DNA of 30,815 nucleotides from a virus. A model generated the notes under the pieces. The model was not told the DNA's origin, did no database searches, and saw only the letters and a program-made list of their open reading frames with translations. Below are positions 2,672 to 30,815 of this stretch, one piece after another. How positions within the stretch are numbered: the first letter of the stretch is position 1; every line of letters begins with the position of its first letter. Location: the IMG/VR virus record IMGVR_UViG_3300031951_000832, positions 1-30,815 of that record; one strand, given 5' to 3'. Both the position numbers and the translations under genes were made by a program.

Positions 2672-3127
2672 ATGGCAAATGGTAAAACATATGGAATAAA
2701 TTTTCCCTTTAACGATTCTCGTACTGGAAGATATTTAAGTCTTTCAGATAACGCGGCTCAGGAGATAAGAACCGATTTAATACATCTTTTATTAACAAGA
2801 AAGGGTACGAGATATTATTTACCTGATTTTGGTACAAGATTGTATGAATTTATATTTGAACCAATGGATGGACCAACTTTTTCTGAGATTGAGGCTGAAA
2901 TTAGAGCGTCTGCAGAAGAATATATCCCAAACATTACCATAACTAATATAAGTGTAACTTCCGCTGATATGGGTGAGGAAGACAAAGGTACTTATGTTGA
3001 AGGTGATGAAAGAATTTATAGAGTACCCGGAATCGGGCTTAAAGAACATACCGCAAAGGTTAAAATTGAATACACTATTAGTGATGATGTTTTTAACGCT
3101 AGCGACTTTGTAATAATTAACATTTAA
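2672..3127 (+). CDS. 25: Baseplate wedge protein, gp25-like (GPW/gp25 family)
   Basis: This is a small baseplate protein of the GPW/gp25 family (T4 gp25, P2 gpW, TssE in type VI secretion), with 151 residues against about 130 in T4. It is part of the core wedge that nucleates sheath assembly. The family signature is clear in the first half: an N-terminal segment ending LLLTRKGTRYYLPDFGTRL, then FIFEPMD and a helix, where glycine and arginine precede P-x-F-G and an FEP motif follows. The C-terminal half adds beta strands. The ATG at 2672 has no Shine-Dalgarno and sits 3 nt after a TATTTATA box. The gp6-like gene begins 4 nt after its stop, the usual gp25-gp6 pairing. Confidence 0.9.
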   Translation: MANGKTYGINFPFNDSRTGRYLSLSDNAAQEIRTDLIHLLLTRKGTRYYLPDFGTRLYEFIFEPMDGPTFSEIEAEIRASAEEYIPNITITNISVTSADMGEEDKGTYVEGDERIYRVPGIGLKEHTAKVKIEYTISDDVFNASDFVIINI

Positions 3128-3131
3128 TATT

Positions 3132-4970
3132 ATGGCTAATAAGAAAATATCGTATACTACGAGAGACTTTCAATCAATAAGAACTGAGTTAATAAATTTC
3201 ACAAGAACTTATTATCCTGAGTTAATAGATAACTTCAATGATGCGGGGGTATTCTCGGTGTTGTTGGACTTAAATGCTGCAGTTACAGATAACTTACAGT
3301 TTAATATTGATAGAAGTATCCAAGAAACTGTATTACAATACGCACAACAAAGGTCTTCAATTTTTAATATTGCAAGAACATACGGATTAAAAGTTCCGGG
3401 ACAAAGACCATCGGTCGCTTTAGTTGATTTTTCAATTACAGTACCTGCTTATGGTGATAAGGAAGATTTAAGATATTGTGGTATCTTACGTAGAGGGTCA
3501 CAAGTTAATGGTGCCGGTCAAACCTTTGAAACAGTATATGATATTGACTTCTCATCACCAATTGGTGCGGAGGGATTCCCTAATAGGTTAAAAATACCTA
3601 ATTTTGATAATAACAACAAATTAATCAATTACACTATTGTTAAAAGAGAAACTGTTGTTAATGGTGTTACGAAAGTATTCAAAAAAGTGATAACTGCGAA
3701 TGATATTAGACCATTTTTAGAAGTTTTCTTACCTGAAAAAAACGTTTTAGGGGTAACTAGTGTATTATTAAAAGATAGTACTCAGTATTCTAACGTTCCT
3801 TCAGTACAGGAGTTCTTAGGGGTTGATAATAGGTGGTATGAGGTAAATGCGTTGGCTGATAGTAGAGTATTTATTGAAGACCCAACTAAAGTATCTGACC
3901 AACCTGGTATTAAGGTAGGAAAATATATTGAAACAAGTACTAAATTTATTACAGAATTTACTCCGGAAGGATTTATGAAAATGACCTTTGGTGGTGGTAA
4001 TCAATCTGCGGATGAACAATTGAGAGAATTTGCAAGAGATGGTTATAATTTGAATTTATATAAATACTCAAATAATTTAGCATTAGGTAGTACATTAAAA
4101 GCTAATTCAACTTTATTTGTTCAATATAGAATTGGTGGTGGTACCGGAAGTAATTTAGGTGTGAATGCTATAACTCAAATTGGGACTGTTTCGTTCTTTG
4201 TTAACGGACCAAGTCAAAGTCAAAATACAAATGTGATTAACTCATTATCTTGTAATAACGTAACCGCGGCAATCGGTGGGGCAAATTACCCAACTACCGA
4301 AGAAGTTAGAAACTTAGTGGCGTTTAACTTCTCAGCACAACAAAGAGCGGTGACAGTTAATGACTATGATTCTATTATTAGAACAATGCCATCACAATTT
4401 GGTGCACCTGCTAAAGTTGCTATCACCGAAGAAAACAATAAGATTAAAGTACAAATGTTATCATATGATGAAAATGGTAATTTAACAAATATTGTTTCAA
4501 ATACCTTAAAAAATAACGTCGCAAACTACCTTTCAAATTATAGAATGATAAATGATTATGTTTCTATTGAAACCGCTAACGTAATTGATTTAGGTATTAA
4601 TGTTGATATAGTGTTAGATAACAGTCAAAATCAAGGTACTGTAATTTCACAAGTTATTAATCTTATTACAACATTCTTTGAACCAACAAATAGACAAATG
4701 GGTGAGAATGTTAATATATCTGAATTAAGACGTTTAATTCAAAGTGAAAATGGTGTAATTTCATTATCGGACATTATATTTTATAACAGAGTTGGTGGTG
4801 AATATTCGTCATCTCAAACTTCACAAAGATACTCTGATTCAGATACAAGACAAATACAATTGGTTGACGACACTATCTTTGCTGAACCAAGTCAAATTTA
4901 TCAAATTAGGTATCCGGGCAAGGATATTAACATTAGAGTTAAAAATCTTAAAACAGTTAACTTCACGTAA
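3132..4970 (+). CDS. 6: Baseplate wedge protein, gp6-like (Baseplate_J family)
   Basis: The protein has 612 residues, close to T4 gp6 (660). Proteins of this family (T4 gp6, P2 gpJ, TssF) form the ring that joins baseplate wedges and triggers the conformational change on adsorption. The N-terminus, starting SYTTRDFQSIRTELINFTR and followed by a helix with PELIDNFNDAGVFSVLLDL, is characteristic. The centre (about residues 280-430) is the J-like region, with glycine-rich GGGTGSNLG and the segment VTVNDYDSIIRTMPSQFG, a highly conserved signature of gp6-like proteins. The C-terminal domain (about 470-612) carries the ferredoxin-like portion. Coupling to the gp25-like gene and the size agree. No Shine-Dalgarno is present. 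Confidence 0.92.
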   Translation: MANKKISYTTRDFQSIRTELINFTRTYYPELIDNFNDAGVFSVLLDLNAAVTDNLQFNIDRSIQETVLQYAQQRSSIFNIARTYGLKVPGQRPSVALVDFSITVPAYGDKEDLRYCGILRRGSQVNGAGQTFETVYDIDFSSPIGAEGFPNRLKIPNFDNNNKLINYTIVKRETVVNGVTKVFKKVITANDIRPFLEVFLPEKNVLGVTSVLLKDSTQYSNVPSVQEFLGVDNRWYEVNALADSRVFIEDPTKVSDQPGIKVGKYIETSTKFITEFTPEGFMKMTFGGGNQSADEQLREFARDGYNLNLYKYSNNLALGSTLKANSTLFVQYRIGGGTGSNLGVNAITQIGTVSFFVNGPSQSQNTNVINSLSCNNVTAAIGGANYPTTEEVRNLVAFNFSAQQRAVTVNDYDSIIRTMPSQFGAPAKVAITEENNKIKVQMLSYDENGNLTNIVSNTLKNNVANYLSNYRMINDYVSIETANVIDLGINVDIVLDNSQNQGTVISQVINLITTFFEPTNRQMGENVNISELRRLIQSENGVISLSDIIFYNRVGGEYSSSQTSQRYSDSDTRQIQLVDDTIFAEPSQIYQIRYPGKDINIRVKNLKTVNFT

Positions 4971-5041: not shown

Positions 5042-8000
5042 ATGCCAAAATCATATAGAATACGAACTGACGTAGGGGTTGACAAATCCGTTAGTATATC
5101 AATTGACCAAGAATTTGAATATTTGGAGATTTTATCTCTTAAAGTTTTACAGAGTGATATCTATACTCGTGTATGTTCAGACTATGGTGTGGTTATTGGA
5201 CGTGTTAGTGTAAATGACGGATTTGGTATTCCAAACGCAAAAGTTTCTATCTTTATTCCATTAAGTAATGAAGACGCAGAAGACCCAATAATTTCTCAAA
5301 TTTATCCATATAGAACAGTTTTAGATGTTAATGATGATGGTTATAGATACAATTTATTACCTTACGAACCATCTTACAGTGCTCACAAACCAACAGGGAC
5401 ATTTCCATCAAAAACTGACGTTTTAACAAATCCAACTCTTATTGAAGTTTATGATAAGTACTATAAGTTAAATGCTGTAACAAATCAGAGTGGAGATTTT
5501 ATGATATTTGGGGTTCCGGTGGGGTCTCAAACACTTGTTGTGGATATTGACTTATCAGATATTGGTGAATTTTCTTTATCACCTCAAGATTTAATTAGAA
5601 TGGGTATTGCAACTGAATCACAGGTTAGTGGTACAAATTTTAAAACATCATCAAATCTAAGAGAATTACCTCAAATTGTTAGTTTTAATAGAACTATTGT
5701 TGTAGAACCATTATGGGGTCAATCAGAATATTGTAATTTAGGTATTACAAGAACGGATTTTGACTTGAGTAATGAATCAAATATTAATATTGAGCCAACA
5801 GCAATATTTATGGGGTCTTTAATATCAACCAATGATGACCAATTTCAAAAGAAAAATTGTAAACCAAAACCCAAATCAGGTCAATTATGTTCATTAACAA
5901 CAGGACCGGGAGAAATATTAGCTATTAGACAAACAATATTTTTAGATGTGAATGGTCGTCCTGTACTTGAAACTTTTGATTTAGAACAAGGTGGTCAAGT
6001 AATTGATGAAAATGGTACTTGGTTATTAGATGTGCCAATGAACTTAGATTATTTAATTACTAATGAATTTGGTGACCAAGTTATATCTGATGACCCAAAA
6101 AAAGGTATACCAACAAGAGGTAAATATAGATTCAAAGTTAAATGGAATCAATCACCGACATTAAATGAGGCAATCAGAAGAGGATACTATCTTGTACCGA
6201 ATATTAAAGAGTACGGATGGGCGGATTCAAGTAGTGACCCACGTAATGAACCAAAAACCTCAACTGAATACATTAATTTTGTTAAATCTTATTCTTTTAG
6301 TTTAGATTGGAATGATTATGGTACTCAACAAATGATACAAGAGGCTATTGATTGCGAAGATAGATTTTATATGATGTCATATAATAAAGTCTATACTGTA
6401 TCACAATTGATTACTCAATATAGAAAGGGTTATGCTGCTAATGCTATAGTATCTATAAAAAATATTGTAACTGATGAATGTAGTAGTGATATAAATAAAT
6501 TCCCGACAAATGATGCTGTTTATCGATTTGATTTAATATTTTTTCTATTAAAAATATTATCATATGTGTTTAAACCGACTTTGATAGGGTTGGTTATTGT
6601 TGCACATATAGTTTATATAGCAATATTTTTATTGTCTTTGATTCTACGATTTTTAATTTATGTTATTGGTACTGTAGTTGTTGCTCTATGTCAAGTTGTT
6701 AAAGTCATAATAAGAGTAGTTAATGGTTTATCAGGTGGAAGCATACGATTAAGTGTTAAATGTCCAAAGATGAGTGATGTTAATAAATTAGCTGAAAGAT
6801 TTAAAAACATTCAAGACCAATTTAGAAATATCAAAATTCCAAATTTATCTTATCCTGATTGTGATGTTTGTAATTGTAAAGACTCTGACCAAGTACAAGC
6901 AGAATCAGACTCTGAAACTGATGCTGTATCGCAACAAATACAAAATTCAGGTGGTGCGGGTGGTGTTACAAATTTTTTCGACTTTGAATCATATCCAATA
7001 ACTGGTACAACAATATTAAATACTCAAGATAATTATTTTTATCAACAACTTTATACTGGTTTACAGTGGATTGAGGGAGACGAATATACTGCTCAATTAG
7101 TTCAATCGAGAGCGCCTCAATTGATAACTATTACTACACCTAATCCGGCCGACCCACCAATCCCACCTACTCTTAAAGTTACTGACACATTTACTTCAAG
7201 TATTCCAATTGGAGAAAGATTAAATTTATTTAACACTAAAGCAAAATATTTTAATGGTCCTCAGGATATGCCGAGTGTTGCTTTAACAGGTAGTGGTATA
7301 ATATCAGATTTAGCTACTCCAACACCTGGTGTGGGTAATATTTTAACTGTTACATCAATAAGTAATCCATATTTATTTGTTGGAGCTTTATTAACCGGTT
7401 CGGGTATTGCTCCCAATACAAGAGTTTTATCTCAAATAAGTGGAGTTAATGGGGGTGCTGGTACCTATATTGTTTCACCATCTCAATTAAGGTCTTTAGG
7501 GTCTTTTACAGTTTCAAATTTTGCGACAGATTCACCAAACTCATCACCATTATATGATAATCCGGGTGGTGGTGTTAATAGAATCAAGGTTAAAGTTGAA
7601 AAAACAATTTCAACAAATTCAGGTAAATTTCACTTAGATAATGTAATCGCACTTGTTGTGAAGAATGAGGTATTAACAGAGTTAGAATCAGGACAGATTT
7701 TATCTTTTCAAGACCCTGAATTGAGTATGGATAGAAATATGACAGGAGGTACTTTGAATTTTGATAGTAGACAATCAATCGTTGGTAAAACACTAACACC
7801 TTTGATTTCAGGTAGAGCAAAGGTGGCAAACAATACTTTCCCTATTACATCAGGTAACACGTTAACGGTTAATGATATTACTTATATTACTAACCCCAAC
7901 GTTAATGGGTTACTTCCAAATACTATGATAGAGATTGAAGGTGATGTTGATGGTTTGGGTAATCAAATAATAAGAAAAATAGTTAGTCAAAATTCAATAT

Positions 8001-11000
8001 TTGCACCAAGTAATAACTTACCACCAACACCATATGGTTTGGGGACTTATACCATAGACGGACCTGTTGCATTAATTAATCCATCTAAATTTGTCGTTGT
8101 AACCCCAACAAGTAGACAATTATCTTATGCTGACCCATCAGGTAGTGGTGTTGATATTTCTGTAACATATGATTTGGTACTTAGAGGTAATCCTCAATTT
8201 CCTGATTACGATTATCTAAAATTCCCAATGGATTTGGAATATTTACAAGTTATTACCGGTATGACTTATTCAGATTACTTTTCATTAGTTAATCAAAATC
8301 CTGATTTAACACAAACAAGTTGGGATAATTTAACTTTTAATAGAAGGTTTTTAGATAATGATACTATGATTTATAACGTACGAGGATTTTTAACCGAATG
8401 GGATAGATATAACAAATTTGGTGGTAGTGCGGTCGACGGTAATCCGGCTTATTTACCTAAAATTCAATACAATTTTAATGATAATTTCACGGACTTAAAT
8501 GAACAGGGTGTTATATTTTTAGTAAGAGGTGTTGACCCTCAATCTCATAGAGTAAACATTGAATATGATTTAAGTAAATTATTTGGGTACTATAATTTTG
8601 GTGTGGGACCTATTGTTAGTGGAAAATTTAAATTGAATCATCCGATAAAAGGAGGTTTTAAAACTGTTAACCACAAAAATGTTAATTTTAATGACGATAC
8701 TGATTCTTATTCTGGTTTGAAATTATTTTATAATTCGTTTTATATGACTTTAGAACCGAATGGTTCTTCACCAACAGTTCCACCACCATTCCAACCGACA
8801 TCTGAACCAGGTGAACCACCACCAACTTACTTTCCTGATATTATCATAGGAAGTGGTTTCAGCGCATTTACAAGTAATACAATATCTTATTATTCTTCAT
8901 TTGATAATAACACATTGACATCATCACCATTATTTAATCCTGGTACAGGATGTCCATATTCTAATGATATATCACTCGGAGGTTATGGACCATCAAGTCC
9001 CATTGTTCCATTAATTACTGATGGTTCTCAAACTTATTCAAAAGGTGCTAGATTAAAAAGGTCGAATTTTGGTCCAATCCCACCATCTTTATTAGAATCA
9101 GTTTCGAATAATAGAACTATAGGTAATAATGGATTCGTTGTTGAATGGAAACAATATGCGACAGTTAATGCTGGTGTTGATTGTGCTATTTGTTTTCCTC
9201 CTTATGCAGGTGGTGATAGATACAATACAGAATCAAATACTTTTGGTACAGATACAAGAAAAAATAGAGGTTATTTTGAAACTGAAATAGTTGAAGGTTC
9301 AGGGTTTATGTATCAAGATATTGATATGGGTCAATCATTTTATGATTTTCGTACTATTGCTGGTGTTACATACCTTTGTTGTATTAATAATGGTGATAGA
9401 AAAGCAAATGGATTCTATTACGCTCCGGGATATTCTCAAACAGATACACTTGTTGAATTTAGTGACCGAACATTAATGGTTATGAGGTCGGATAAATTAC
9501 CAACATCAACAGCATTACAACCAAATTATTGTAATACTTTCCCATTACATAATAATAATAACTTTACTATTTTTACATTCAGCGAAGATGGAACAACAGG
9601 AGTGGTTGGAGGACTAAATGGTTCTACAGATAATAATACCTTTGCGGATTTAGATAGTGGTTCAAAAAGAATTAATCAAGTACTAAACTCATTTACTTGT
9701 GCTAATATGGCTCCTTTACCTTGTTATGATGTGACACAAGAGGGACCATTTAGTGGTACTGGACTTTGTACTTCAGAATTTAGAGTAAGACCTAAAAGTG
9801 ACAAATGTTGGGAATCGGGTCCTGGTGTAGGTGCTCGAGGGTTTGAAGGTGGATGTTATGTATTTGTAACAGTTCCTTTATTATCATTAGTAAATGGTCA
9901 CGATATAAGGGCGATTTTTGAATGGTCAGAAAGACTTTTAATTACTTTTGGTGCTTGTAGGGATGTTTTTTCTCATTTATTTACTAATAATTGGGTTAAT
10001 GGAACTTTATACGCTTGGTCATTTAATAATAATGTAACATATTCTTCACCTTTATTAACAAACGGTAATCAACCAAGTAGTCAATTTTGTAGAGACACTT
10101 TAATGTTGCATCCCACAACTAACAATTTTTATTATAGAAGTAGTCCGTATAATGATACTAATGATGCTTTTGTAGGTGCTGATAGACCTAAAGTTACTGG
10201 TATGCTCAGGTTTAATGAATATAATGGTAATTTTCATAATTTATTATATCCAACTACTATAATTGATTTAGGACCAAGAAATAATTATATGCAAGAAATA
10301 GTTATGTCAGATGAATTTGATGGTTATGTTGTGAATAAACTAGGTCCGACAAGTTTCCAAGATGTTTCAGATTTATTAAATTTATTTTTAATTTCGAGAT
10401 TGGGTAATCTTGGGACTTTTTCACTACCAGGTATATTAACTGGAGGTGTACAAATTGAAACATTTTTTGATAGAAACGAATCCGGATTTTTAGGTATAGG
10501 TGGAACTAAGATGGTTGATGGGGACTATGCTCAAATGATATCAATTAATTCTGAATTAGGGGTTATACCATTCAATGAAATCAATTATATGGATTATACA
10601 GAAGCCGGTATTCAAGACCCAATATTTATAACGAGTGGAGGTTATAAGGAAATTGTTATTGGTATTTTTTATAGAGCTAATTTACAATTAAGGGATTTTA
10701 TTACACCTAAAAGAACAATAATTGATGGGTTATCACCAATTACTACTCAAGTAAATAGTATTAATTGTAACGTAAATAATTTTCCTGTAAAATCACAAAA
10801 AGTACCTTTTTATAATTGGGATATTAGAACAGGGGGTCCAAGATATTGTACTAGTACTGCAACAATATTCGGAAGTCAAAAGAATGATTGGTATTCAAAA
10901 CCTATAAATAGTAATGGAGGGTTTATGTCTCATAGATATCAAGATTTGAAGAGAGAAGAACCTACTTCGAGATATTTTAGAACAGAACCAAATACTCTTG

Positions 11001-11269
11001 GATTAAATTATTATCCCGGATTTATTTCTGCGGTTCAGGCAAGTGGACCATATTTAGACCCGACAACAGGTGATTATTATAGAAATGCTGACGGATATTA
11101 TAATTACACCGCGGACGAAAATTATTGGGACCAAACAAACAATGTGCCGAGAGCAATTCATACGGGAGCCCCTTTTTACTTTTATTTTGGGTTAAAAAAA
11201 GGTCAAACGGCTTATGATAGATTTTCTAGAAAATGGATACCAACACAAACAATTTTGACATATGAGTAA
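5042..11269 (+). CDS. Giant 2075-aa baseplate/tail structural protein with internal hydrophobic segment
   Basis: The largest gene of the window follows gp6, the slot held by gp7 in T4, but it is twice gp7's size and not recognisably similar. Residues about 45-185 resemble a transthyretin/carboxypeptidase-regulatory beta sandwich (VVIGRVSVNDGFGIPNAKVS; later NQSGDFMIFGVPVG). Residues about 498-561 are almost uninterrupted hydrophobic, enough for two or three membrane helices. A soluble helix and a CDVCNC cluster (about 606-612) follow. Residues about 746-830 form a GSGI...GAGTYIVS unit of a type common in phage fibre proteins. The last 900 residues are Asn/Tyr/Gly-rich, with several cysteines. 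The C-terminus overlaps the next gene by 8 nt. A virion role is inferred from locus and composition; the exact function is unknown. Confidence 0.7.
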   Translation: MPKSYRIRTDVGVDKSVSISIDQEFEYLEILSLKVLQSDIYTRVCSDYGVVIGRVSVNDGFGIPNAKVSIFIPLSNEDAEDPIISQIYPYRTVLDVNDDGYRYNLLPYEPSYSAHKPTGTFPSKTDVLTNPTLIEVYDKYYKLNAVTNQSGDFMIFGVPVGSQTLVVDIDLSDIGEFSLSPQDLIRMGIATESQVSGTNFKTSSNLRELPQIVSFNRTIVVEPLWGQSEYCNLGITRTDFDLSNESNINIEPTAIFMGSLISTNDDQFQKKNCKPKPKSGQLCSLTTGPGEILAIRQTIFLDVNGRPVLETFDLEQGGQVIDENGTWLLDVPMNLDYLITNEFGDQVISDDPKKGIPTRGKYRFKVKWNQSPTLNEAIRRGYYLVPNIKEYGWADSSSDPRNEPKTSTEYINFVKSYSFSLDWNDYGTQQMIQEAIDCEDRFYMMSYNKVYTVSQLITQYRKGYAANAIVSIKNIVTDECSSDINKFPTNDAVYRFDLIFFLLKILSYVFKPTLIGLVIVAHIVYIAIFLLSLILRFLIYVIGTVVVALCQVVKVIIRVVNGLSGGSIRLSVKCPKMSDVNKLAERFKNIQDQFRNIKIPNLSYPDCDVCNCKDSDQVQAESDSETDAVSQQIQNSGGAGGVTNFFDFESYPITGTTILNTQDNYFYQQLYTGLQWIEGDEYTAQLVQSRAPQLITITTPNPADPPIPPTLKVTDTFTSSIPIGERLNLFNTKAKYFNGPQDMPSVALTGSGIISDLATPTPGVGNILTVTSISNPYLFVGALLTGSGIAPNTRVLSQISGVNGGAGTYIVSPSQLRSLGSFTVSNFATDSPNSSPLYDNPGGGVNRIKVKVEKTISTNSGKFHLDNVIALVVKNEVLTELESGQILSFQDPELSMDRNMTGGTLNFDSRQSIVGKTLTPLISGRAKVANNTFPITSGNTLTVNDITYITNPNVNGLLPNTMIEIEGDVDGLGNQIIRKIVSQNSIFAPSNNLPPTPYGLGTYTIDGPVALINPSKFVVVTPTSRQLSYADPSGSGVDISVTYDLVLRGNPQFPDYDYLKFPMDLEYLQVITGMTYSDYFSLVNQNPDLTQTSWDNLTFNRRFLDNDTMIYNVRGFLTEWDRYNKFGGSAVDGNPAYLPKIQYNFNDNFTDLNEQGVIFLVRGVDPQSHRVNIEYDLSKLFGYYNFGVGPIVSGKFKLNHPIKGGFKTVNHKNVNFNDDTDSYSGLKLFYNSFYMTLEPNGSSPTVPPPFQPTSEPGEPPPTYFPDIIIGSGFSAFTSNTISYYSSFDNNTLTSSPLFNPGTGCPYSNDISLGGYGPSSPIVPLITDGSQTYSKGARLKRSNFGPIPPSLLESVSNNRTIGNNGFVVEWKQYATVNAGVDCAICFPPYAGGDRYNTESNTFGTDTRKNRGYFETEIVEGSGFMYQDIDMGQSFYDFRTIAGVTYLCCINNGDRKANGFYYAPGYSQTDTLVEFSDRTLMVMRSDKLPTSTALQPNYCNTFPLHNNNNFTIFTFSEDGTTGVVGGLNGSTDNNTFADLDSGSKRINQVLNSFTCANMAPLPCYDVTQEGPFSGTGLCTSEFRVRPKSDKCWESGPGVGARGFEGGCYVFVTVPLLSLVNGHDIRAIFEWSERLLITFGACRDVFSHLFTNNWVNGTLYAWSFNNNVTYSSPLLTNGNQPSSQFCRDTLMLHPTTNNFYYRSSPYNDTNDAFVGADRPKVTGMLRFNEYNGNFHNLLYPTTIIDLGPRNNYMQEIVMSDEFDGYVVNKLGPTSFQDVSDLLNLFLISRLGNLGTFSLPGILTGGVQIETFFDRNESGFLGIGGTKMVDGDYAQMISINSELGVIPFNEINYMDYTEAGIQDPIFITSGGYKEIVIGIFYRANLQLRDFITPKRTIIDGLSPITTQVNSINCNVNNFPVKSQKVPFYNWDIRTGGPRYCTSTATIFGSQKNDWYSKPINSNGGFMSHRYQDLKREEPTSRYFRTEPNTLGLNYYPGFISAVQASGPYLDPTTGDYYRNADGYYNYTADENYWDQTNNVPRAIHTGAPFYFYFGLKKGQTAYDRFSRKWIPTQTILTYE

Positions 11270-19000: not shown

Positions 19001-19134
19001 CTTTTGGATATGATTATTATATAACAGAGGAAGGTAATGTTGCAATTTATAATATAATATGTGACGTATCAAGAATTGGTGTTAACTTTGAAATAAAGGT
19101 GGGAATAAATTTTAATATTTTGTGTAGTAAATGA
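16090..19134 (+). CDS. Baseplate wedge protein with P2 gpI / T4 gp7-like segment (1014 aa)
   Basis: Residues about 389-477 resemble the tail protein I family (P2 gpI, related to the conserved part of T4 gp7 and TssG). LLKNLSQTLGWSINISP is followed by YRNLVLNSAYLFKSKGTRKS and IETLMRMIGAP, where the family has W-x-x(5)-Y/W, an alpha helix, the KGT motif and a glycine-terminated helix. The N-terminal 380 residues are beta-rich and the C-terminal part is Cys-containing (CELIPIYCTPCSLTTG). The last 90 residues match a module in the next protein. With the gp25- and gp6-like genes this would complete the core wedge set. It starts at TAATG and overlaps the next gene by ATGA. The gpI assignment is by motif and context only. 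Confidence 0.65.
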   Translation: MAITKYTCPPQSASGAGTFSDDLVGFQLVTGGGLTQGNFEFVASFNEKSDRTFTTGNFSEPITLDSLGIESSIQSKRIVENNFKVYPNFDLSQITNFSLYGSMVKRISTSVETIISFFPAGLESTFLGINYVTGATAINISFDSVQNITTFDLDIARIRNPFNIDFTVSSTRNLSLLEIPVSPLRDLTKQYAKYSLYYNSTGYTVTSIVPTTSLTSGNLTITVDGNPFSYQTVVYDDLVVRPNDYEVARVFNEDLDEVENFLLNRTVTPIYTSTFKVPKESDDGSYYTFNQTVTWPLYGNWNLDILTPSFTNYLIKLNEISESLDSYKTNLVSRFLTTGAFKDFDTVDQKMEKVLQVYGRSFDETNKFVSALAYMNSVNYNVGNDIPSQLLKNLSQTLGWSINISPITNDDFLSSVFGQTNEDKSSFTGVGIASTPDELNYQFYRNLVLNSAYLFKSKGTRKSIETLMRMIGAPDALVEFNEYIYLADGRINMTDFDTQFAQISTGTYLRELPVLDPNNIYTILGPQNVYTGFTTTSIIKDVNITLNEYPIDEYGYPSMMENSDVYFFQMGSGWFESTPQHRAPQQVDLTNSVFTGSNPNYQTSLKPYTYGQEYLNNYRQLPFTDLGFNLTAQVDNNKSWVDNEVGLRSNLDGSYNARYFTESDNLVINVKNVDLFMNPGQGLSYDVWHLSRTTDFPISDNGLGWVEPTICDPFPIVNYPTRKSVDWTVIDPQPKRKTFFEFAQTFWLNTINVRNRQFNTDGKTSGYPTLSSIYWKYLESEKIAGVRNDNFTYKTMIEYVDGMGDYWIRLVEQLIPATTIWNTGVKYENSIFHRQKFVWRRQMGCELIPIYCTPCSLTTGLFRNDCPTQIVECPIYPTETTFNGVLGDVLNNYLDNNGYDLNNCKVNKLNSQWFVEIYIDNSLKISYPFFNGVGYTNPSPCVETPTFSGLSSPCDSVWYSALLIALDGLETFGYDYYITEEGNVAIYNIICDVSRIGVNFEIKVGINFNILCSK

Positions 19135-22100
19135 GTTGTTTATTAAGTGTTGTAAGAAGTTTTACAGGTGATTGTACAAATAGTAGTATTGGGGCAATTA
19201 ACGTTGAGATTACGGGTAGTGCTCCTGATTATACGATACAGTGGGTACAACCATCATCTTATGGTGTTATTTCTTTAGGTGCTGGTGTTACAGGGTATAC
19301 GCAAACCGGATTATCAGGGGGTACTTTTATTTTCAATGTTATAGATAGTTGTGCTGTTGAAAATACGGTTTTACCGGTTAGTTTTTATATTTCAACAGGA
19401 ACTTGTGTAAGTATTACATCAACTCAAGATACTACCTGTAATTTCAATAATGGGATATTAACAGCGAGTACCGCTAATTTATATAATGAAACGGCGAGTT
19501 TTTATCTATATAATAACAGTCTTGGATATGTAACAAGTGGTTTCAGTTATACTAATGAATATGTTTTTACAAATTTATCTCCGGGAACTTATTATGTGAT
19601 TGGTGATGATGGAGGTGGATGTACAGGTAAATCTGAAACGTGTATAGTTAAACCGTCGACAGAATTAGATTTTGGGTTTTTTGTTGTGAATAACTCGGGA
19701 TGTGGTAATGGTGATACTGGTAAATTATATGTAACCGGATTAACGGGTAACGCACCATATTATTATTTATGGTCAACAGGTAGTATAGATGACTATCTTA
19801 CAGGATTAACTTCCGGTAATTATTCTGTAACTATTACAGATAGTAGTGGGTGTATTATTACCAAAAGTACTAATGTGAGTGACGTACCACCCTTAGGTGT
19901 TCAATCTGTATCTACAACACCTCCTGACTGTTTTGTAACAAATGGTTCAGCGACTATTGTAATACAAGGAGGTACTGCTCCGTATCATTATTTAGGTTCT
20001 AATGGTTATAGTGATGTTTCGTATTCAACTAGTTATACTTTCAACAATTTAGGGTCTGGAAATTTTGTTATTTCAGTAACTGATTCTGCGTTATGTAATT
20101 TAGTTACAAACACCTCGATTATAGCTCCCCAAGCATTTTCTGTTGTAACTGTTGGAATCAATAATTCTACTTGTAATAATTCTACGGGGTCATTATCCCC
20201 AATAATATTAATTGGTCCAAATCTGACATATATTTATTCCTTAACATATCCGTCCGGATATATTATGAGTAGTACTACTACAAGTACATTTTGGGAGTAT
20301 AATAATTTGGCTTCAGGGATTTACTCTTTAACCATTAGTGGTGGTGATTGTGTATTTACTCAACAATATGAAATTAATAATACGGTTGTCTATACTTTAA
20401 GTGCAACTACAACACCAACAACTTGTAATAAAGTTAATGGTTCTGTGTTATTGGAAATTTCTCAAGGGGGTGTTGCTCCCTATACGTTTACTATTACCGG
20501 TAAACCACCTATTCAGACTAGTTTTTCTTCTGTAACATTTAATAACTTAGCGTCAGACACCTATACAGTAACCGTTATTGATTCTAATGGGTGTGCACAA
20601 ACAGATACGATAATAATAAATTCATCACCAACGGTTGATTTTGTCTTAAATAAAAACGATGCTACAACAGGTTCTAATGGAAGTATTCAAACATATATTA
20701 CAAGTGGAACACCACCATTTACATATTTGTGGAGTAATGGTCAAACAACGGCAAACATATCGGGATTAAATGATGGTGATTATACTTTAACAGTTACAGA
20801 TATTAATGGTTGTGTGAAACAAAGAACTGTAACAATTTATGGTTATGATAACGTTTCTTCATATCAATCATACACTATTTGTGATGATATATTTGCTGAT
20901 GGGGGAAATGTTAAAAAAGGTATTAAACAGATGTTTATTGAAGGGTACTTAGATTCAATTTCTGACGATTACAATTGTATCTTAGATTCGGCAATATTTA
21001 TTGGTCAAGTTACGGTTGGTAATGAAATAACTTCTTTTCCTTTTTATGTTTCAAATAGTTTAACTGAATATCCATCTGACAATCAATGGTTTGAATTTGT
21101 AAAATCAATACTTGAAGATTATCCAAATATTGGTGATGTAATTATTGATTACGTTGGTAATACAATAACAATTAACACTAATTGTGACCCGGAATCTTTA
21201 TTTAATACTAATGTTATCGTTAGATTAAGAATTGAATATTTTATTTCTTGTGAGAAATGTAATCTTTCTTGTGATATTGAATATACTCAAATTCCATTAG
21301 AAGAATTTATAATTAATGCGGTAGGTGTTACTCAAATTTACCAAACACCTAACAGTGGATTTACAATAAATTCATCACTTACTTATGATATAGATTGGGG
21401 TGACGGAATTATAGAGACATTCCCACCCGGAACTACTAAAATAAATCACACATATTCATCACCATATACAGGACAAATTAAAATTTTATCAACAAATTTA
21501 ACGACAATAACATCATTTACCTCAGAAACAAATCCTCATAACTCTCAATCATTATGGACATCAACAAGTGAATTAAATAAATTAGATGGATTATTAACTT
21601 TAAATGTTCAAAATGGTAATGGTTTATTTATTACTGGTGACGTTACTGATTTACCTACAACTTTAACAAGTTTAATAGTTTATAACAATAATCTTAGTGG
21701 TGACACATCTAATATACCACCAATTTTAACACTTATGGCTATATATGGTGTTAATACAATTAGTGGTGACACATCAGGATTTCCAAGTACTTTAACTAGT
21801 GTATTAGATTTACAGGGTAATAATACAGTTAGTGGTGATACATCTGATTTACCACGTATGCTGACAGGCTCAACAATGATTATTAAAGGTCAAAACACTA
21901 TAAGTGGTGATACAACTGATTTACCTGCGGTAAGACAATTAAGAATTACAGGTTTTAACACAATAAGTGGTAGTGTTTTAAATTTACCAAGGTCATTTGT
22001 AATTTGTGAAATTGATGGTTATAACACAATAAATGGTAATATATCTACAGTACCACCAAACATACAGATTTTATCAATTAGTGGTAATAACACAGTTAGT

Positions 22101-22487
22101 GGGGATGTAACAACATTGCCTTCAACATCAGTTGCTATTGATATTGAGGGTTCTAACACATTAACAGGTGATTTATTTTCATTACCACCACTAATAGTTA
22201 ATTTTTTTATAAGAGGTAATAATACCTTTACTTATTCTTCATCAGGTAGAGTTTGGGCTTCTAATTACACAATTCTATTTATAGAACCAACGGGTGGCAT
22301 TTGGACAGGGTTTAACTCAACAGAAACAGACAATATATTAATTGATATTCAACCTAGTTATATTAATACTTCTTTTAGTGAATTTACAATTAAATGTGGT
22401 TCAACACCTAAACGAACGTCAGCGAGTGATACGGCTTTTAACGCATTAGTAGCACTTATTGGAGCAGGTGATGTAGTTTTAAATTAA
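19131..22487 (+). CDS. Modular adhesin-like protein: SprB-type repeats, PKD-like domain, leucine-rich solenoid (1118 aa)
   Basis: Residues about 1-570 are roughly seven tandem beta-sandwich repeats of 75-95 residues. The clearest reads SGTPPFTYLWSNGQTT, then ISGLNDGDYTLTVTDINGC, the signature of SprB repeats found in Bacteroidota gliding adhesins. A bridging domain (about 575-720) resembles the C-terminus of the preceding protein. A PKD-like turn, DIDWGDGIIETFPPG, lies near 752. From about 830 to 1040 nine units of 21-24 residues with consensus NTISGDTSDLPxxLTxLxI form a leucine-rich solenoid. A capping region with ETDNILIDI follows. No signal peptide is seen, so it is assembled in the cytoplasm as a virion part. 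The ATGA overlap couples it to the gpI-like gene. Role inferred: side fibre or adhesin contacting the cell surface. Confidence 0.75.
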   Translation: MSCLLSVVRSFTGDCTNSSIGAINVEITGSAPDYTIQWVQPSSYGVISLGAGVTGYTQTGLSGGTFIFNVIDSCAVENTVLPVSFYISTGTCVSITSTQDTTCNFNNGILTASTANLYNETASFYLYNNSLGYVTSGFSYTNEYVFTNLSPGTYYVIGDDGGGCTGKSETCIVKPSTELDFGFFVVNNSGCGNGDTGKLYVTGLTGNAPYYYLWSTGSIDDYLTGLTSGNYSVTITDSSGCIITKSTNVSDVPPLGVQSVSTTPPDCFVTNGSATIVIQGGTAPYHYLGSNGYSDVSYSTSYTFNNLGSGNFVISVTDSALCNLVTNTSIIAPQAFSVVTVGINNSTCNNSTGSLSPIILIGPNLTYIYSLTYPSGYIMSSTTTSTFWEYNNLASGIYSLTISGGDCVFTQQYEINNTVVYTLSATTTPTTCNKVNGSVLLEISQGGVAPYTFTITGKPPIQTSFSSVTFNNLASDTYTVTVIDSNGCAQTDTIIINSSPTVDFVLNKNDATTGSNGSIQTYITSGTPPFTYLWSNGQTTANISGLNDGDYTLTVTDINGCVKQRTVTIYGYDNVSSYQSYTICDDIFADGGNVKKGIKQMFIEGYLDSISDDYNCILDSAIFIGQVTVGNEITSFPFYVSNSLTEYPSDNQWFEFVKSILEDYPNIGDVIIDYVGNTITINTNCDPESLFNTNVIVRLRIEYFISCEKCNLSCDIEYTQIPLEEFIINAVGVTQIYQTPNSGFTINSSLTYDIDWGDGIIETFPPGTTKINHTYSSPYTGQIKILSTNLTTITSFTSETNPHNSQSLWTSTSELNKLDGLLTLNVQNGNGLFITGDVTDLPTTLTSLIVYNNNLSGDTSNIPPILTLMAIYGVNTISGDTSGFPSTLTSVLDLQGNNTVSGDTSDLPRMLTGSTMIIKGQNTISGDTTDLPAVRQLRITGFNTISGSVLNLPRSFVICEIDGYNTINGNISTVPPNIQILSISGNNTVSGDVTTLPSTSVAIDIEGSNTLTGDLFSLPPLIVNFFIRGNNTFTYSSSGRVWASNYTILFIEPTGGIWTGFNSTETDNILIDIQPSYINTSFSEFTIKCGSTPKRTSASDTAFNALVALIGAGDVVLN
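21624..22240 (+). repeat. Nine tandem 63-72 bp units encoding a leucine-rich solenoid
   Basis: The core AGTGGTGATAC or a close variant recurs in frame near 21633, 21696, 21762, 21831, 21903, 21966, 22032, 22098 and 22164. Spacing is always a multiple of 3 (63, 66, 69 or 72). Units differ at many third positions, so the array is old or under selection for protein structure rather than freshly amplified. Confidence 0.8.
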
Positions 22488-22528
22488 TAAAATGTGCAAA
22501 AAAATTAAAAAATAGTTATAATATCATT

Positions 22529-23968
22529 ATGCCAACAACAATACAAATAACAACAGATAATTACGACGGACAAACCGCGGTAATAACTTATTACCCTGAT
22601 ACGGGAGGAACTATTAATTTAGGTTCACAAGTGTTACCATATAATTATGTTACGGATTATTATTATGGAACTTATAGTTTATATTTTCCGGCATTTGATA
22701 CAACTTGTACCTTAATTATACAAAATCAAACACCGACACCTACTTCTACGATTACACCTACACCTACGATTACTCCTACACTGACACCAACGCCTACACA
22801 AACATCATCTAAACAATATTATGTTTATAAGTTATGTAATTCAAATCCACCACAATATGTGGTTCAAACACAACAAGGATTAACGGGAACTCCGGGTAAA
22901 GTAATCCGAAAAGTAACAGATAATAGTTGTTGGGAATTTTTATATCAAACAACTAATCCAAATCCATTTCCTCCGGGTACTAGTGTTATTGATTGGGATG
23001 GTGATTATTTATCACCAACATTGGGAATTATTTTTGATAATTGTACCGATTGTTTATCATATGTTGAACCAATTCTAACTCAAACTCCTACACCAACAAA
23101 AACAATTACTCCAACACCAAGTATAACACCAACAAAAACAATTACACCTACACCAACAAAAACAACTACTCCTACACCAACACAAACTCCTACATCAACT
23201 TCAAGTACCCCTGTATTATTTTCTTATTGTCCAAATAATGTACTTACTCCGACTACACCATATTATTGGAAAGGGTTAACTACCACACCAGATGGTACAG
23301 TATATGGTTGTACATTAAATGGTCTTGTTCGTCAATATCCTATAGGAGGACCTTGGTCTAGTGTATCAGTACCAACTACTATAGATGCGGCAATTGCTGG
23401 AGATTCTTTAGGTAATGTATATGCGGCAAGATTTAATGAAGGTCTTTATATAAAATTATTTGGTAATTCATATTTTCAATCATTTATATCTTCTCTTGGA
23501 TTTAAACCTTGGACAGGTTTGTTTGTAGACCAATTTGATACATTGTGGGCGCTTGATACTACAGGTTCTATTTTTACAAAAGCAGTATCTACAACTACAT
23601 TTGTATATCACGGTCCGTCAATTGCGGCAGCAAGAGATATTACTGTAGCACCTAATGGAGATGTTTATGTGTGTCGTCCTGATAGTATGTTGAAACAAAC
23701 AGGAGGAGTTGGACCATTTGTTGCACTACCAACAAATCCAGGATATTGGACTAGTGTGTCGGCAGCACCTAATGGAGATATAATTTGTGTTGGTGAAAAA
23801 CAAGCTCCTTATGATGGAGGTATTTGGGTAATATATTCAGGAACAAATACTTTTGTTAAATTATCTTGTGATTCAGATTCTGATTGGGAAAGTGTTCACG
23901 CAATTGCAGGTGGTAAATTCTATGCGGGACAAGGTATTAGTGATGGACAAGTTCATATATTTGGTTAA
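22529..23968 (+). CDS. Fibre-like protein: TP linkers, Cys module and six-bladed tectonin-like propeller (479 aa)
   Basis: The order is: a beta domain (about 1-65, starting MPTTIQITTDNYDG); a TP-rich linker (about 67-93); a Cys module (about 95-180) with CW at 134-135, W156-D-G158 and a final C-x2-C at 172/175; a second TP linker (about 185-228); and a propeller (about 240-479). The propeller has six units of 35-42 residues such as WKGLTTTPDGTVYGCTLNG and YWTSVSAAPNGDIICVG, where W...V...PnGdvY resembles tectonin or NHL-type blades, often glycan-binding. The architecture (stalk, spacer, terminal propeller) suits a receptor-binding tip. It is the last rightward gene and meets the leftward block after 33 nt. 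Its first 24 bases nearly match a mini-ORF at 28886-28966. Confidence 0.72.
   Translation: MPTTIQITTDNYDGQTAVITYYPDTGGTINLGSQVLPYNYVTDYYYGTYSLYFPAFDTTCTLIIQNQTPTPTSTITPTPTITPTLTPTPTQTSSKQYYVYKLCNSNPPQYVVQTQQGLTGTPGKVIRKVTDNSCWEFLYQTTNPNPFPPGTSVIDWDGDYLSPTLGIIFDNCTDCLSYVEPILTQTPTPTKTITPTPSITPTKTITPTPTKTTTPTPTQTPTSTSSTPVLFSYCPNNVLTPTTPYYWKGLTTTPDGTVYGCTLNGLVRQYPIGGPWSSVSVPTTIDAAIAGDSLGNVYAARFNEGLYIKLFGNSYFQSFISSLGFKPWTGLFVDQFDTLWALDTTGSIFTKAVSTTTFVYHGPSIAAARDITVAPNGDVYVCRPDSMLKQTGGVGPFVALPTNPGYWTSVSAAPNGDIICVGEKQAPYDGGIWVIYSGTNTFVKLSCDSDSDWESVHAIAGGKFYAGQGISDGQVHIFG
22727..22808 (+). repeat. Low-complexity ACNCCNACN repeat encoding a TP-rich linker
   Basis: The tract encodes about 27 residues dominated by Thr-Pro (TPTPTSTITPTPTITPTLTP). 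The codon choice varies (ACA/ACG/ACT/ACC with CCT/CCA/CCG), which limits perfect slippage. It links the N-terminal domain and the Cys module. Confidence 0.85.
23081..23214 (+). repeat. Low-complexity TP/TK-rich linker repeat
   Basis: About 44 residues alternate TPTPTKTITPTPSITPTKT and similar, separating the Cys module from the propeller. Blocks such as ACACCAACAAAAACAATTAC recur with one or two changes, a possible recombination or slippage site. Confidence 0.85.
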
Positions 23969-27555: not shown

Positions 27556-28860
27556 TTAAGTTATGATTATATTACAACAATCACAACCATTTATGATTGC
27601 ATTTAATAATGAATAAGTGTCTGTACTGTCACCAACAGTACATAAATTATATTCTGATTTGGTTACACTAGTTGTTGTGTTAATAACAAGACTATCAGTA
27701 TTAACCATAGTTAATGACATCCAAGTTTCAGTTAAACCTGTTTGATATACGGTTAAATCTTGACAACCTGGTGTGGTATTAACAGTTGTGCCGGTGGAGT
27801 TATTAGTACTATTATAACTTATTATACTACTATTCTTAGTTATTGTTGTATTTGTAATCAATGTTGACGTATTGTCATTTGGTGATGACTTAAAGTTATT
27901 GTTGTGTATTAAATCAAATGTGATTGAAACTCCATTAGGTAATGCTGGTGTTACACTGATTGTTGTTGTGTATTCTTTTGTTAGAATGTATGTTGTACTT
28001 GTTGTTGTATTAACAGTGGTATTTAATGATATATTATAAGTTGTTGGTGGTATCGGAGCATTTAATGTTACTGTGTTACCATAAACAACTGAATCTGAAT
28101 CTAATACAGTAATATTATATATACCGGTACATAAGTTATTAAAGAATGGTGAGGTTGAATACGTAGAACCGTTGTTTATTGAGTATGTGTATGGTGCAGT
28201 ACCGTTTAAGTTTTGTGTGTTAATAATAATATTACCATCACATCCACAATTAGGTTGATTAACACTATATGGTGTGTTAATACGTCTAAACTCTGTTGAT
28301 GGTCCTCCCGGAGTACAAACACCTGAATAAACGGTTACTTCTCCATCCAAACCAAATATATCCCAATTTGTTAAAGGCGGATATGTACCCGGTGTTGTGA
28401 CCTGTTTAATAATTGGACAAATAATACCAAAACAAGGCCAAGTCTGTAATTCCCAAGTATTTAGGGAGTTATTCCAAACAATTTGGTATGTTTCATCATC
28501 AGATATCCATTTATGTTTTCCATTACTATCAAACTCATTTGGGTTGAAATGTATATTGTCCGTGCTAACATCAGGTATAACTATGTTCATACAAAAATCA
28601 TATAATTCATCGGTTGGTAAGGCCTCAATAAATTGTGGTGGACATTTCGGGTTACTTATTATAATTTGTGTTGTTGAATCAGGTACAATAACATTAACAC
28701 CGGTCGTTCCCGTAAGTTGTGTTAAAGTTAAACCTGTTGCGGGTAAACCCGTTGAAAATATTGTTGCAGTACTACCTGAAGACACAGTATTCCAATAAAT
28801 GGTATATGGTCCGGGAGACGTTGAAGTTGGTGTTATATTTACGGTGTAATATCTACTCAT
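27556..28860 (-). CDS. Beta-rich virion protein with SprB-like repeat (434 aa)
   Basis: The protein starts MSRYYTVNITPTSTSPGPYT, a Thr/Ser/Gly-rich beta domain of about 70 residues. A module with NGKHKWISDDETYQIVWNN and W-E-L follows (about residues 112-140), shared with the 971-aa protein. Residues about 205-265 form one SprB-like unit: GTAPYTYSINNGSTYSTSP, then LCTGIYNITVLDSD. The rest is very rich in Thr, Asn and Ser (TTVNTTTSTTYILTKEYTTT) and ends in a CDCC cluster. About 13 cysteines are present, with no signal peptide. It sits between the right-edge fibre gene and the 971-aa gene in the leftward operon. The most likely role is a fibre or decoration protein; the receptor is unknown. Confidence 0.65.
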   Translation of the reverse strand: MSRYYTVNITPTSTSPGPYTIYWNTVSSGSTATIFSTGLPATGLTLTQLTGTTGVNVIVPDSTTQIIISNPKCPPQFIEALPTDELYDFCMNIVIPDVSTDNIHFNPNEFDSNGKHKWISDDETYQIVWNNSLNTWELQTWPCFGIICPIIKQVTTPGTYPPLTNWDIFGLDGEVTVYSGVCTPGGPSTEFRRINTPYSVNQPNCGCDGNIIINTQNLNGTAPYTYSINNGSTYSTSPFFNNLCTGIYNITVLDSDSVVYGNTVTLNAPIPPTTYNISLNTTVNTTTSTTYILTKEYTTTISVTPALPNGVSITFDLIHNNNFKSSPNDNTSTLITNTTITKNSSIISYNSTNNSTGTTVNTTPGCQDLTVYQTGLTETWMSLTMVNTDSLVINTTTSVTKSEYNLCTVGDSTDTYSLLNAIINGCDCCNIIIT

Positions 28861-28978: not shown

Positions 28979-30815
28979 TTATTCAATTGCACCATAAAAC
29001 CTTACATCTACTAAATAAGGAGATTCTCCTGGTAGTATTGTAATTGTTGGTGACGTTATTGATATTCCTGTTTGTACATCATAAAATACCGTTCCGGATA
29101 AATTGGATATGGTGACTTCTACTGTTGTGCTTTCAACGGGTGCTGTAGGAATAGCTTCAACAACTAATATATCTCCGACATTACAAGGTGTTATTGAACC
29201 TGAACCATCAGTAGTTTGTGCTAAAACACTAATACTATTTAGCTCTATTGATAAAAGTCCTTCTGCTGGTGAAGTTTTTTCATAAACCCAATTTAAAACT
29301 GAAGGAGTTGTTGATGTTGTTGGTGTTGGTGTTGGTGTTAATGTGTTAGTAGGTGTTTGGGTTGGAGTTATCGTGTTAGTTGGTGTTGGTGTTGGTGTTT
29401 TAGTAGGTGTTGGAGTTGGAGGTGTAAACGATTTAATTATTCCGACAAAATCACAATCGGTTTTTGCCGTTAAAGTACAAGTTGTGGTTGCAGTAAAATC
29501 ACCCCAATAATCAACAACAGTAACCGTATAATCTCCTACAGGAACCTCATCAATTGCCGGAGCGTGATTATTATTACCAATATTTGTTCCTTCCCAAGTG
29601 TATTTATATGGTGGTGTTCCACCTGTAATAGACACTGACACATAACCATCATATGATTCCGGTGTTGAAGGTAATATCGAAACACATTCAATGTCCATTG
29701 GAAATATAGTAATAACATTACATTCATTTGTGTACCCGATAATCTGTTGTGTTGGAGGCGGAGGACAAGGATGTTCAATTTTACAATCTTCACAACTATC
29801 ATATCCGTTTAAGTCAATATTATCATTATTAAAATCGTATAATGTTACAGGGTATGGCACTGAAGATACTGTTTTAACACAAAATGTGTTAGTACCAATA
29901 GTTATTGAAAAATATGAATCTTTTGATATTATTAGACCATTATAATTAAAAACCCCTAAATATTGACCAATATTACAACATCTTTGAAAATATATAATTG
30001 TTGGTTTAGATGTTGGTGTGGGCGTTAAAGTTGGTGTAGGTGTAATTGTTGGTGTTGGTGTAGGTGTTTTAGTTGATGTGGGGGTTGGTGTTGGTGTTTC
30101 TTGTTGACAAAAATAGTTATTTATTACTTGACAGTCATTACATCCACCAACATCATACCAAGTACCATTCCAATCTAAATTTGCAGTTCCTCCCTCAGAG
30201 ACTTCAACAATTTTATAACAAGTACTGTCGGTTGAAGAACCAACAACTTGGTTGGCTAATAAATTTGGTGGTAACTCCATATAACCATCAGGTTTATCAC
30301 CACAACAGTCTGAAACTAAATATACACTATAAGGAGATGGATTACATCCTAAGTCAGATTCACAAGTACTTCCAAGTTCAACTGTAAATGTTGGTGTTAT
30401 TGGAACACCACCTTCAAAAAATTCAGGTTCAGTACGAGAACATAAGTAATATGTTAATGTACTATCAATATTTTGTGTATATTGGATATTAGTTAAAACT
30501 TCAACTTGGTCAATAAAATCACCATCTGTGTTTGTATATGAAATATCTAATGATGATGTAATATCACCTGGATTAACTGTCCAAGTATAACAATTATTAA
30601 CCGCAGCTGAACAACCACCACAAGGTGTATCATTAACGTTTATAGCAAATGATAAACCATTTGAAGATGCGTCAATAGGTTCATATAACGAACAGTAATA
30701 AACAATTGTTGGTCCTGTAGTTTCAGGTTGTGCGGGTGGGACTTCAATATCTCCCGACCATTCACCTGTATTACAATCTTGATAGTTAAAATAACCGGAG
30801 AAATTTGCAGAATTA
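28979..30815 (-). CDS. Cys-rich, TP-linker fibre-like protein (5' end beyond right edge)
   Basis: Read on the minus strand, this frame has no stop from the right edge to TAA at 28979, about 612 residues. A Met at 30280 is internal and splits a domain, so the true start lies outside the window. Visible order: Cys-rich beta region (30815-30340); Cys module (about 30130-30334) with PDGYMELPPN, CYKIV, DWNGTW and CNDC; TP linker; a second, divergent Cys module (about 29780-29999) ending CEDC; a SprB-like unit (GTPPYKYTWEGTN, then VPVGDYTVTVVDYWGD); a second long TP linker; and a C-terminal domain of about 110 residues with SLNWVYEKTSPAEGLL-like beta sequence ending RFYGAIE. Sharing modules with genes on the other strand, it is probably a fibre or adhesin. 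Confidence 0.72.
   Translation of the reverse strand, partial: NSANFSGYFNYQDCNTGEWSGDIEVPPAQPETTGPTIVYYCSLYEPIDASSNGLSFAINVNDTPCGGCSAAVNNCYTWTVNPGDITSSLDISYTNTDGDFIDQVEVLTNIQYTQNIDSTLTYYLCSRTEPEFFEGGVPITPTFTVELGSTCESDLGCNPSPYSVYLVSDCCGDKPDGYMELPPNLLANQVVGSSTDSTCYKIVEVSEGGTANLDWNGTWYDVGGCNDCQVINNYFCQQETPTPTPTSTKTPTPTPTITPTPTLTPTPTSKPTIIYFQRCCNIGQYLGVFNYNGLIISKDSYFSITIGTNTFCVKTVSSVPYPVTLYDFNNDNIDLNGYDSCEDCKIEHPCPPPPTQQIIGYTNECNVITIFPMDIECVSILPSTPESYDGYVSVSITGGTPPYKYTWEGTNIGNNNHAPAIDEVPVGDYTVTVVDYWGDFTATTTCTLTAKTDCDFVGIIKSFTPPTPTPTKTPTPTPTNTITPTQTPTNTLTPTPTPTTSTTPSVLNWVYEKTSPAEGLLSIELNSISVLAQTTDGSGSITPCNVGDILVVEAIPTAPVESTTVEVTISNLSGTVFYDVQTGISITSPTITILPGESPYLVDVRFYGAIE
29301..29424 (-). repeat. 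Long TP-rich linker coding repeat
   Basis: About 40 residues of the PTPTPTKTPTPTPTNTITPT type between the SprB-like unit and the C-terminal domain of the right-edge protein. On the plus strand it appears as GGTGTTGGTGTTGG blocks broken by TTAGTAGGTGT units. Confidence 0.85.
30000..30104 (-). repeat. TP-rich linker coding repeat
   Basis: About 35 residues (TPTPTPTSTKTPTPTPTITP and on) between the two Cys modules of the right-edge protein. Its unit structure is close to the linker at 29301-29424 and to those in the gene at 22529 in inverse orientation. Confidence 0.85.

Follow-up and report, generated by a model that had tools for sequence, protein, structure and literature searches.

A conserved SprB-repeat shaft with an exchangeable tip in a candidate tail adhesin of probable Bacteroidota jumbo phages

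The nearest published precedent for the protein described here is the BACON array of crAssphage, a set of tandem repeats (de Jonge et al. 2019, PMC6949934). In both cases an Ig-like domain of Bacteroidota surface proteins is found in tandem in a phage protein encoded at the tail locus, the C-terminus is poorly conserved, and the array is distinct from the bacterial copies and arose as units were duplicated within the phage lineage. The two differ in repeat family, which is SprB here (a Pfam scan at E≤1 finds no BACON domain in our protein), and in the phages concerned, which are environmental jumbo phages with a contractile-type baseplate; in addition, swapping of the tip can be shown at the DNA level for this clade. 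SprB thus appears to join BACON as a Bacteroidota surface domain turned phage tail module, and the route may be a general one.

The same repeat family is found in the SprB-type adhesins that Bacteroidota secrete by the type IX pathway (T9SS), which also share multi-domain company such as PKD. These adhesins have long homogeneous arrays, however, whereas the phage protein has seven divergent units and possesses neither a Por_Secre_tail nor a CHU_C domain, nor an obvious signal peptide. GhpA of Aureispira (PDB 9flp and related entries) has a comparable tandem Ig-like shaft but is a bacterial protein of 5898 aa and no phage tail protein. Closest among viral proteins is A0A6J5LD72, from an uncultured Caudovirales phage, which is 34% identical over about 714 residues and evidently belongs to the same family; no functional study of it was found in the literature. 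Because this uncharacterised entry carries the name 'SprB repeat', SprB in phages has already been auto-named in databases. A literature search of incomplete coverage found no paper that deals with SprB repeats in tail proteins of phages. The 14-repeat protein of LR756502.1 is likewise an array of SprB units from a Bacteroidota phage but, unlike ours, is host-like (signal-peptide-like start, PKD, CHU_C T9SS domain), and it is not an orthologue of the tail-locus protein.

The stretch analysed, referred to below as the window, is IMG/VR virus record IMGVR_UViG_3300031951_000832 (30,815 bp). Its 5′ end is occupied by a ribonucleotide reductase gene, followed by two baseplate wedge genes, several tail-block genes without assignment and then the gene pair that concerns us here:

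2672-3127, + strand: gp25-like baseplate wedge subunit (PHROG 261, E=3.8e-17)
3132-4970, + strand: gp6-like baseplate wedge subunit (PHROG 219, E=2e-22), with a relative in Flavobacterium phage immuto
16090-19134, + strand: conserved baseplate-type protein of 1014 aa, provisionally gpI/gp7-like, directly upstream of the next gene
19131-22487, + strand: putative SprB-stalk tail adhesin of 1118 aa, translationally coupled (ATGA) to the gene before it

The initial annotation had placed the SprB gene in a phage late operon and coupled it to a gpI-like wedge gene. The two frames overlap by exactly ATGA, the stop of the upstream one lying at 19134 and the SprB start at 19131, and the tail/baseplate setting is borne out by the gp25-like and gp6-like genes upstream on the same strand and by a gene order kept across the clade.

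Several lines of evidence bear on the host. NrdA has its best phage relatives in Cellulophaga and Tenacibaculum phages, and relatives of gp6 are found in phage immuto and also in a Microcystis phage. None of 204 long ORFs (from the window and 22 clade loci) is preceded by a Shine-Dalgarno motif, the upstream regions being A-rich; missing Shine-Dalgarno motifs are usual in Bacteroidota. On two clade contigs there are genes for proteins that carry T9SS sorting domains. Taken together, these features point to a host that is very likely a member of the Bacteroidota. The Bacteroidota promoter motif TTTG-N18-20-TANNTTTG shows a weak excess (26 observed against about 17 expected) and was set aside.

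The identity of the 1014-aa protein is less clear-cut. No Pfam or PHROG match was found (Tail_P2_I appears in one of 36 members, at E=0.34), a PDB search gave no match, and the structure model was of low confidence (pLDDT 40.8) and could not be used. A weak tie to known baseplate proteins is seen with hhalign (probability 68-71%), and a SAYLFKSKGTRKSIETLMRMIGAP-type motif is common to this protein and to a protein of the same block in phages immuto and Mel-JY01. Elsewhere in the block, the gene for a 2075-aa protein (5042-11269) is mostly poorly conserved relative to three related loci (L014, L016 and L017) after its first 1.3 kb (6412-11185), the flanking genes retaining 75-82% DNA identity.

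That the 19131-22487 frame encodes SprB repeats was confirmed by a search with PF13573 (E=2.9e-16, 59.2 bits; the curated Pfam cut-off is 28 bits), in which two lone units score above the cut-off (19908-20006 at 34 bits and 20400-20501 at 31.9 bits); 14 control genomes gave no match to the family. A profile made from four unit positions recovers seven units, as had been estimated, the three positions outside the profile scoring 14.9-18.8 bits against 7.0 for the best of 650 shuffled proteins. Of the seven units, each of about 75-85 aa, four are strong and three divergent:

19167-19349, + strand: SprB/Ig-like unit 1 (residues 13-73), divergent
19425-19658, + strand: SprB/Ig-like unit 2 (residues 99-176), divergent
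19680-19895, + strand: SprB/Ig-like unit 3 (residues 184-255)
19914-20138, + strand: SprB/Ig-like unit 4 (residues 262-336), best Pfam match, 34 bits
20160-20381, + strand: SprB/Ig-like unit 5 (residues 344-417), divergent
20412-20636, + strand: SprB/Ig-like unit 6 (residues 428-502), 31.9 bits
20643-20855, + strand: SprB/Ig-like unit 7 (residues 505-575), SGTPPFTYLWSNGQTT
20856-21266, + strand: conserved linker domain (residues 576-712), modelled as alpha/beta

The repeats thus fall within 19167-20855; the span first proposed, 19131-20840, stopped short of their end at 20855, and the gene itself runs on to 22487. In a structure model of the 1118-aa protein the units are Ig-like beta sandwiches arranged in tandem (pLDDT mostly 77-91), followed by an alpha/beta linker domain at residues 598-706; the tip is modelled with low confidence. 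The best PDB match is the GhpA shaft (sequence E=3e-19, Foldseek E=1.2e-20) and the best viral model match is A0A6J5LD72 (BFVD). VIA-align returned a large number of generic FN3/Ig proteins without pointing to a sharper family.

Relatives of the 1014-aa neighbour are present in at least 94 IMG/VR stretches, the best 80 of which lie on contigs of up to 318 kb, and the same gene pair is seen in about 70 IMG/VR contigs. Downstream sequence could be read at 72 of these 80 loci; nearly all have a homologous SprB gene next, with a start anywhere from 4 nt ahead of the neighbour's stop to 53 nt beyond it. Residues 1-712, comprising the seven units and the linker domain, are 42-91% identical to the window protein in every case, and PF13573 matches all 50 records (49 viral contigs plus LR756502), 47 of them above the cut-off. 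Shaft identity correlates with that of the neighbouring gene (Spearman 0.68), as expected for vertical descent. Among INPHARED phages, the neighbour has no relative and LR756502 is the sole relative of the SprB tail protein. Eight clade loci contained no tRNAs.

Beyond residue 712 the picture is quite different:

21267-22484, + strand: swapped tip at the C-terminus; close relatives lose DNA homology at about 21,290 and regain it at about 22,511-22,528
21639-22235, + strand: nine LRR-like repeats of 21-24 residues (DxSxLPxxLxxLxIxGxNTISG) within the tip, model pLDDT about 53-79

The junction is sharp. DNA homology to four relatives (L014, L016, L017 and L018) stops at about 21,280-21,290; in L014, L016 and L018 it comes back only from the next gene, whilst L017 has a diverged copy of the window tip. 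Window and L018 are 92% identical in the neighbour protein and 85% in the shaft, yet their C-terminal 400 residues cannot be aligned. At 70% mutual coverage, 34 phages display 23 tip architectures. The tip of L016 is a Fib_succ_major domain (E=5e-42), those of L040, L061 and L067 are DUF285 repeats (E down to 1e-136) and others comprise carbohydrate-binding-like or Pro/Thr-rich segments; the PKD plus LRR-like form is that of the window and L017. The PKD-like turn and leucine-rich solenoid already described for the window are visible in the sequence, as a YDIDWGDG...HTY motif starting at 21384 ahead of the nine repeats, but neither yields a Pfam PKD or LRR match.

We interpret the protein as a modular host-recognition tail arm of a contractile-tailed Bacteroidota jumbo phage, in which an old SprB/Ig-like shaft carries an exchangeable receptor-binding tip, and we put the probability of this reading at roughly three in four. 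The seven Ig-like units and the linker domain would form a conserved N-terminal shaft, presumably docked on the baseplate via the 1014-aa protein, and the C-terminus (PKD plus LRR-like solenoid in the window) would be the receptor-binding tip, which related phages would swap through recombination at a junction of fixed position. On this view, the SprB units entered the phage lineage before its radiation and now act as a spacer. As the tip is the variable part, it probably contacts the receptor; a conserved N-terminus with an exchangeable C-terminus is the architecture of phage receptor-binding proteins, and by this analogy the protein is predicted to be part of the virion. If so, these uncultured, widespread Bacteroidota jumbo phages gain a concrete candidate host-recognition gene and, since the conserved shaft and the swap junction have been defined, receptor specificity becomes testable.

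In the alternative that survives best, it is the SprB units that would bind to the surface of the host, either to a glycan or to the host's own SprB filaments, with the shaft as the receptor-binding element. Cell-surface binding was proposed for the similar array in the BACON study (PMC6949934), Flavobacterium phage resistance has been linked to gliding loss, with the gliding machinery proposed as receptor (PMC7345892), and a binding role for the shaft retains some weight because units 4-6 vary more than the first and last units among close relatives. Clade-wide, however, the units are conserved by position while the tips differ, and repeated recapture from hosts is not seen, so that we consider this unlikely.

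Less probable still is that the protein lies outside the virion, as a surface or secreted product of the infected cell encoded beside tail genes by chance. Putatively exported SprB proteins are indeed encoded by other phages and by one phage in this clade. The C-terminal T9SS sorting domain (PF18962 or PF13585), however, is present in all five bacterial SprB proteins scanned and absent from the window protein and the eight orthologues scanned. Nor is there an obvious signal peptide at the N-terminus, where the model has residues 5-12 forming the opening strand of unit 1. Where a locus has both genes, this gene is in nearly every case coupled to the baseplate-type gene or lies close to it, and a conserved shaft with a swapped tip is the pattern of a receptor-binding protein. 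Sub-threshold partial PF18962 matches (17-18 bits) in three orthologues were the only hint of a T9SS-type signal in the tail protein, and this candidate was rejected.

The initial annotation suggested that the phage had captured host surface-adhesin modules, either to recognise the same ligand or to mimic the host's own surface. When 84,980 genomes of bacteria and archaea were scanned with a five-unit profile, at least 553 relatives were identified, and 79 of the best 80 are Bacteroidota adhesin-like proteins, in keeping with the affiliation first proposed. The remaining one (L128) comes from a metagenome-assembled genome labelled Rickettsiales, where mis-binning is likely. Shared Pfam family, similar domain company (PKD, DUF285, Fib_succ_major) and these Bacteroidota relatives are all compatible with capture, but identity to cellular proteins reaches only 28-37% among the best 80 of at least 553. 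In a tree of 312 units, U1-U5 and U7 each fall on one side of a branch with support of 97-99, U6 needs two changes and host units lie elsewhere; the tree is built on 75 columns, at which the grouping by position is clear and deep branching is beyond its resolution. As units group by position, the array was assembled once, before the clade radiated; as each repeat position is its own phage clade, it is old and vertically inherited rather than recently captured. With the SprB part a conserved shaft clade-wide, the array old and inherited, the variation in the tip and no T9SS sorting domain, neither same-ligand capture nor mimicry finds support. Shaft conservation and unit phylogeny speak against recent capture in either form, which we rate as highly improbable. 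The SprB units nevertheless appear to share ancestry with the repeats of Bacteroidota T9SS adhesins, and because SprB occurs phylum-wide in Bacteroidota, host to phage is the likelier original direction of transfer. A generic phage Ig-like family unrelated to SprB can be dismissed, the matches exceeding the PF13573 cut-off and the nearest cellular relatives being Bacteroidota.

Putatively exported SprB proteins occur in this clade and beyond. On the 203-kb contig G032 (the contig of locus L054, same clade), a separate 1855-aa protein (L189:5925-11492, equivalent to G032 191924-197491) opens with a signal-peptide-like segment and carries SprB repeats, PKD-like domains and a Por_Secre_tail. Its flanking genes keep their order in two further contigs, G047 and G049, so that the gene is phage-borne and a chimeric contig was rejected as its origin. 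In the 308-kb G047, a 629-aa frame with a Por_Secre_tail lies next to several genes whose products have Bacteroidota-style signal peptides, and this island (L200, about 33,300-40,850) sits between genes conserved in other clade phages. Outside the clade, the 1670-aa protein of the 642-kb phage LR756502.1 (L093:18831-23843) combines a signal-peptide-like start with 13-14 SprB repeats, PKD and CHU_C, and further CHU_C/Por_Secre_tail genes lie elsewhere in that genome. Al-Shayeb et al. (PMC7162821) described a complete, curated 642-kb genome, predicted that phages in this size class have Bacteroidetes hosts and noted that some phage proteins are predicted to reach the host surface. It is conceivable, if rather doubtful, that members of the clade use SprB in two coordinated roles, as a virion adhesin stalk and as a separate T9SS-exported adhesin displayed by the infected cell. 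Such an adhesin could exclude competing phages or stick infected cells to new hosts, and the phage would be exploiting its host's own adhesin secretion pathway; T9SS cargo in some clade phages raises the question of what a phage gains from export via the host T9SS.

Three further features lie downstream of the SprB gene:

22529-23968, + strand: second modular adhesin-like gene, conserved from its start to about 23,070, with Pro/Thr linkers and a variable C-terminus
28057-28260, - strand: single SprB-like unit in a leftward 434-aa protein (27556-28860), 35.2 bits
29507-29668, - strand: single SprB-like unit in a leftward 611-aa protein (28979-30814, open at the contig edge), 39.7 bits

With its conserved start, Pro/Thr-rich linkers and variable C-terminus, the first of these looks like a second swappable adhesin. 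The lone SprB-like units noted earlier in both leftward proteins are real, their scores comparing with 7 bits for the best of 650 shuffled proteins.
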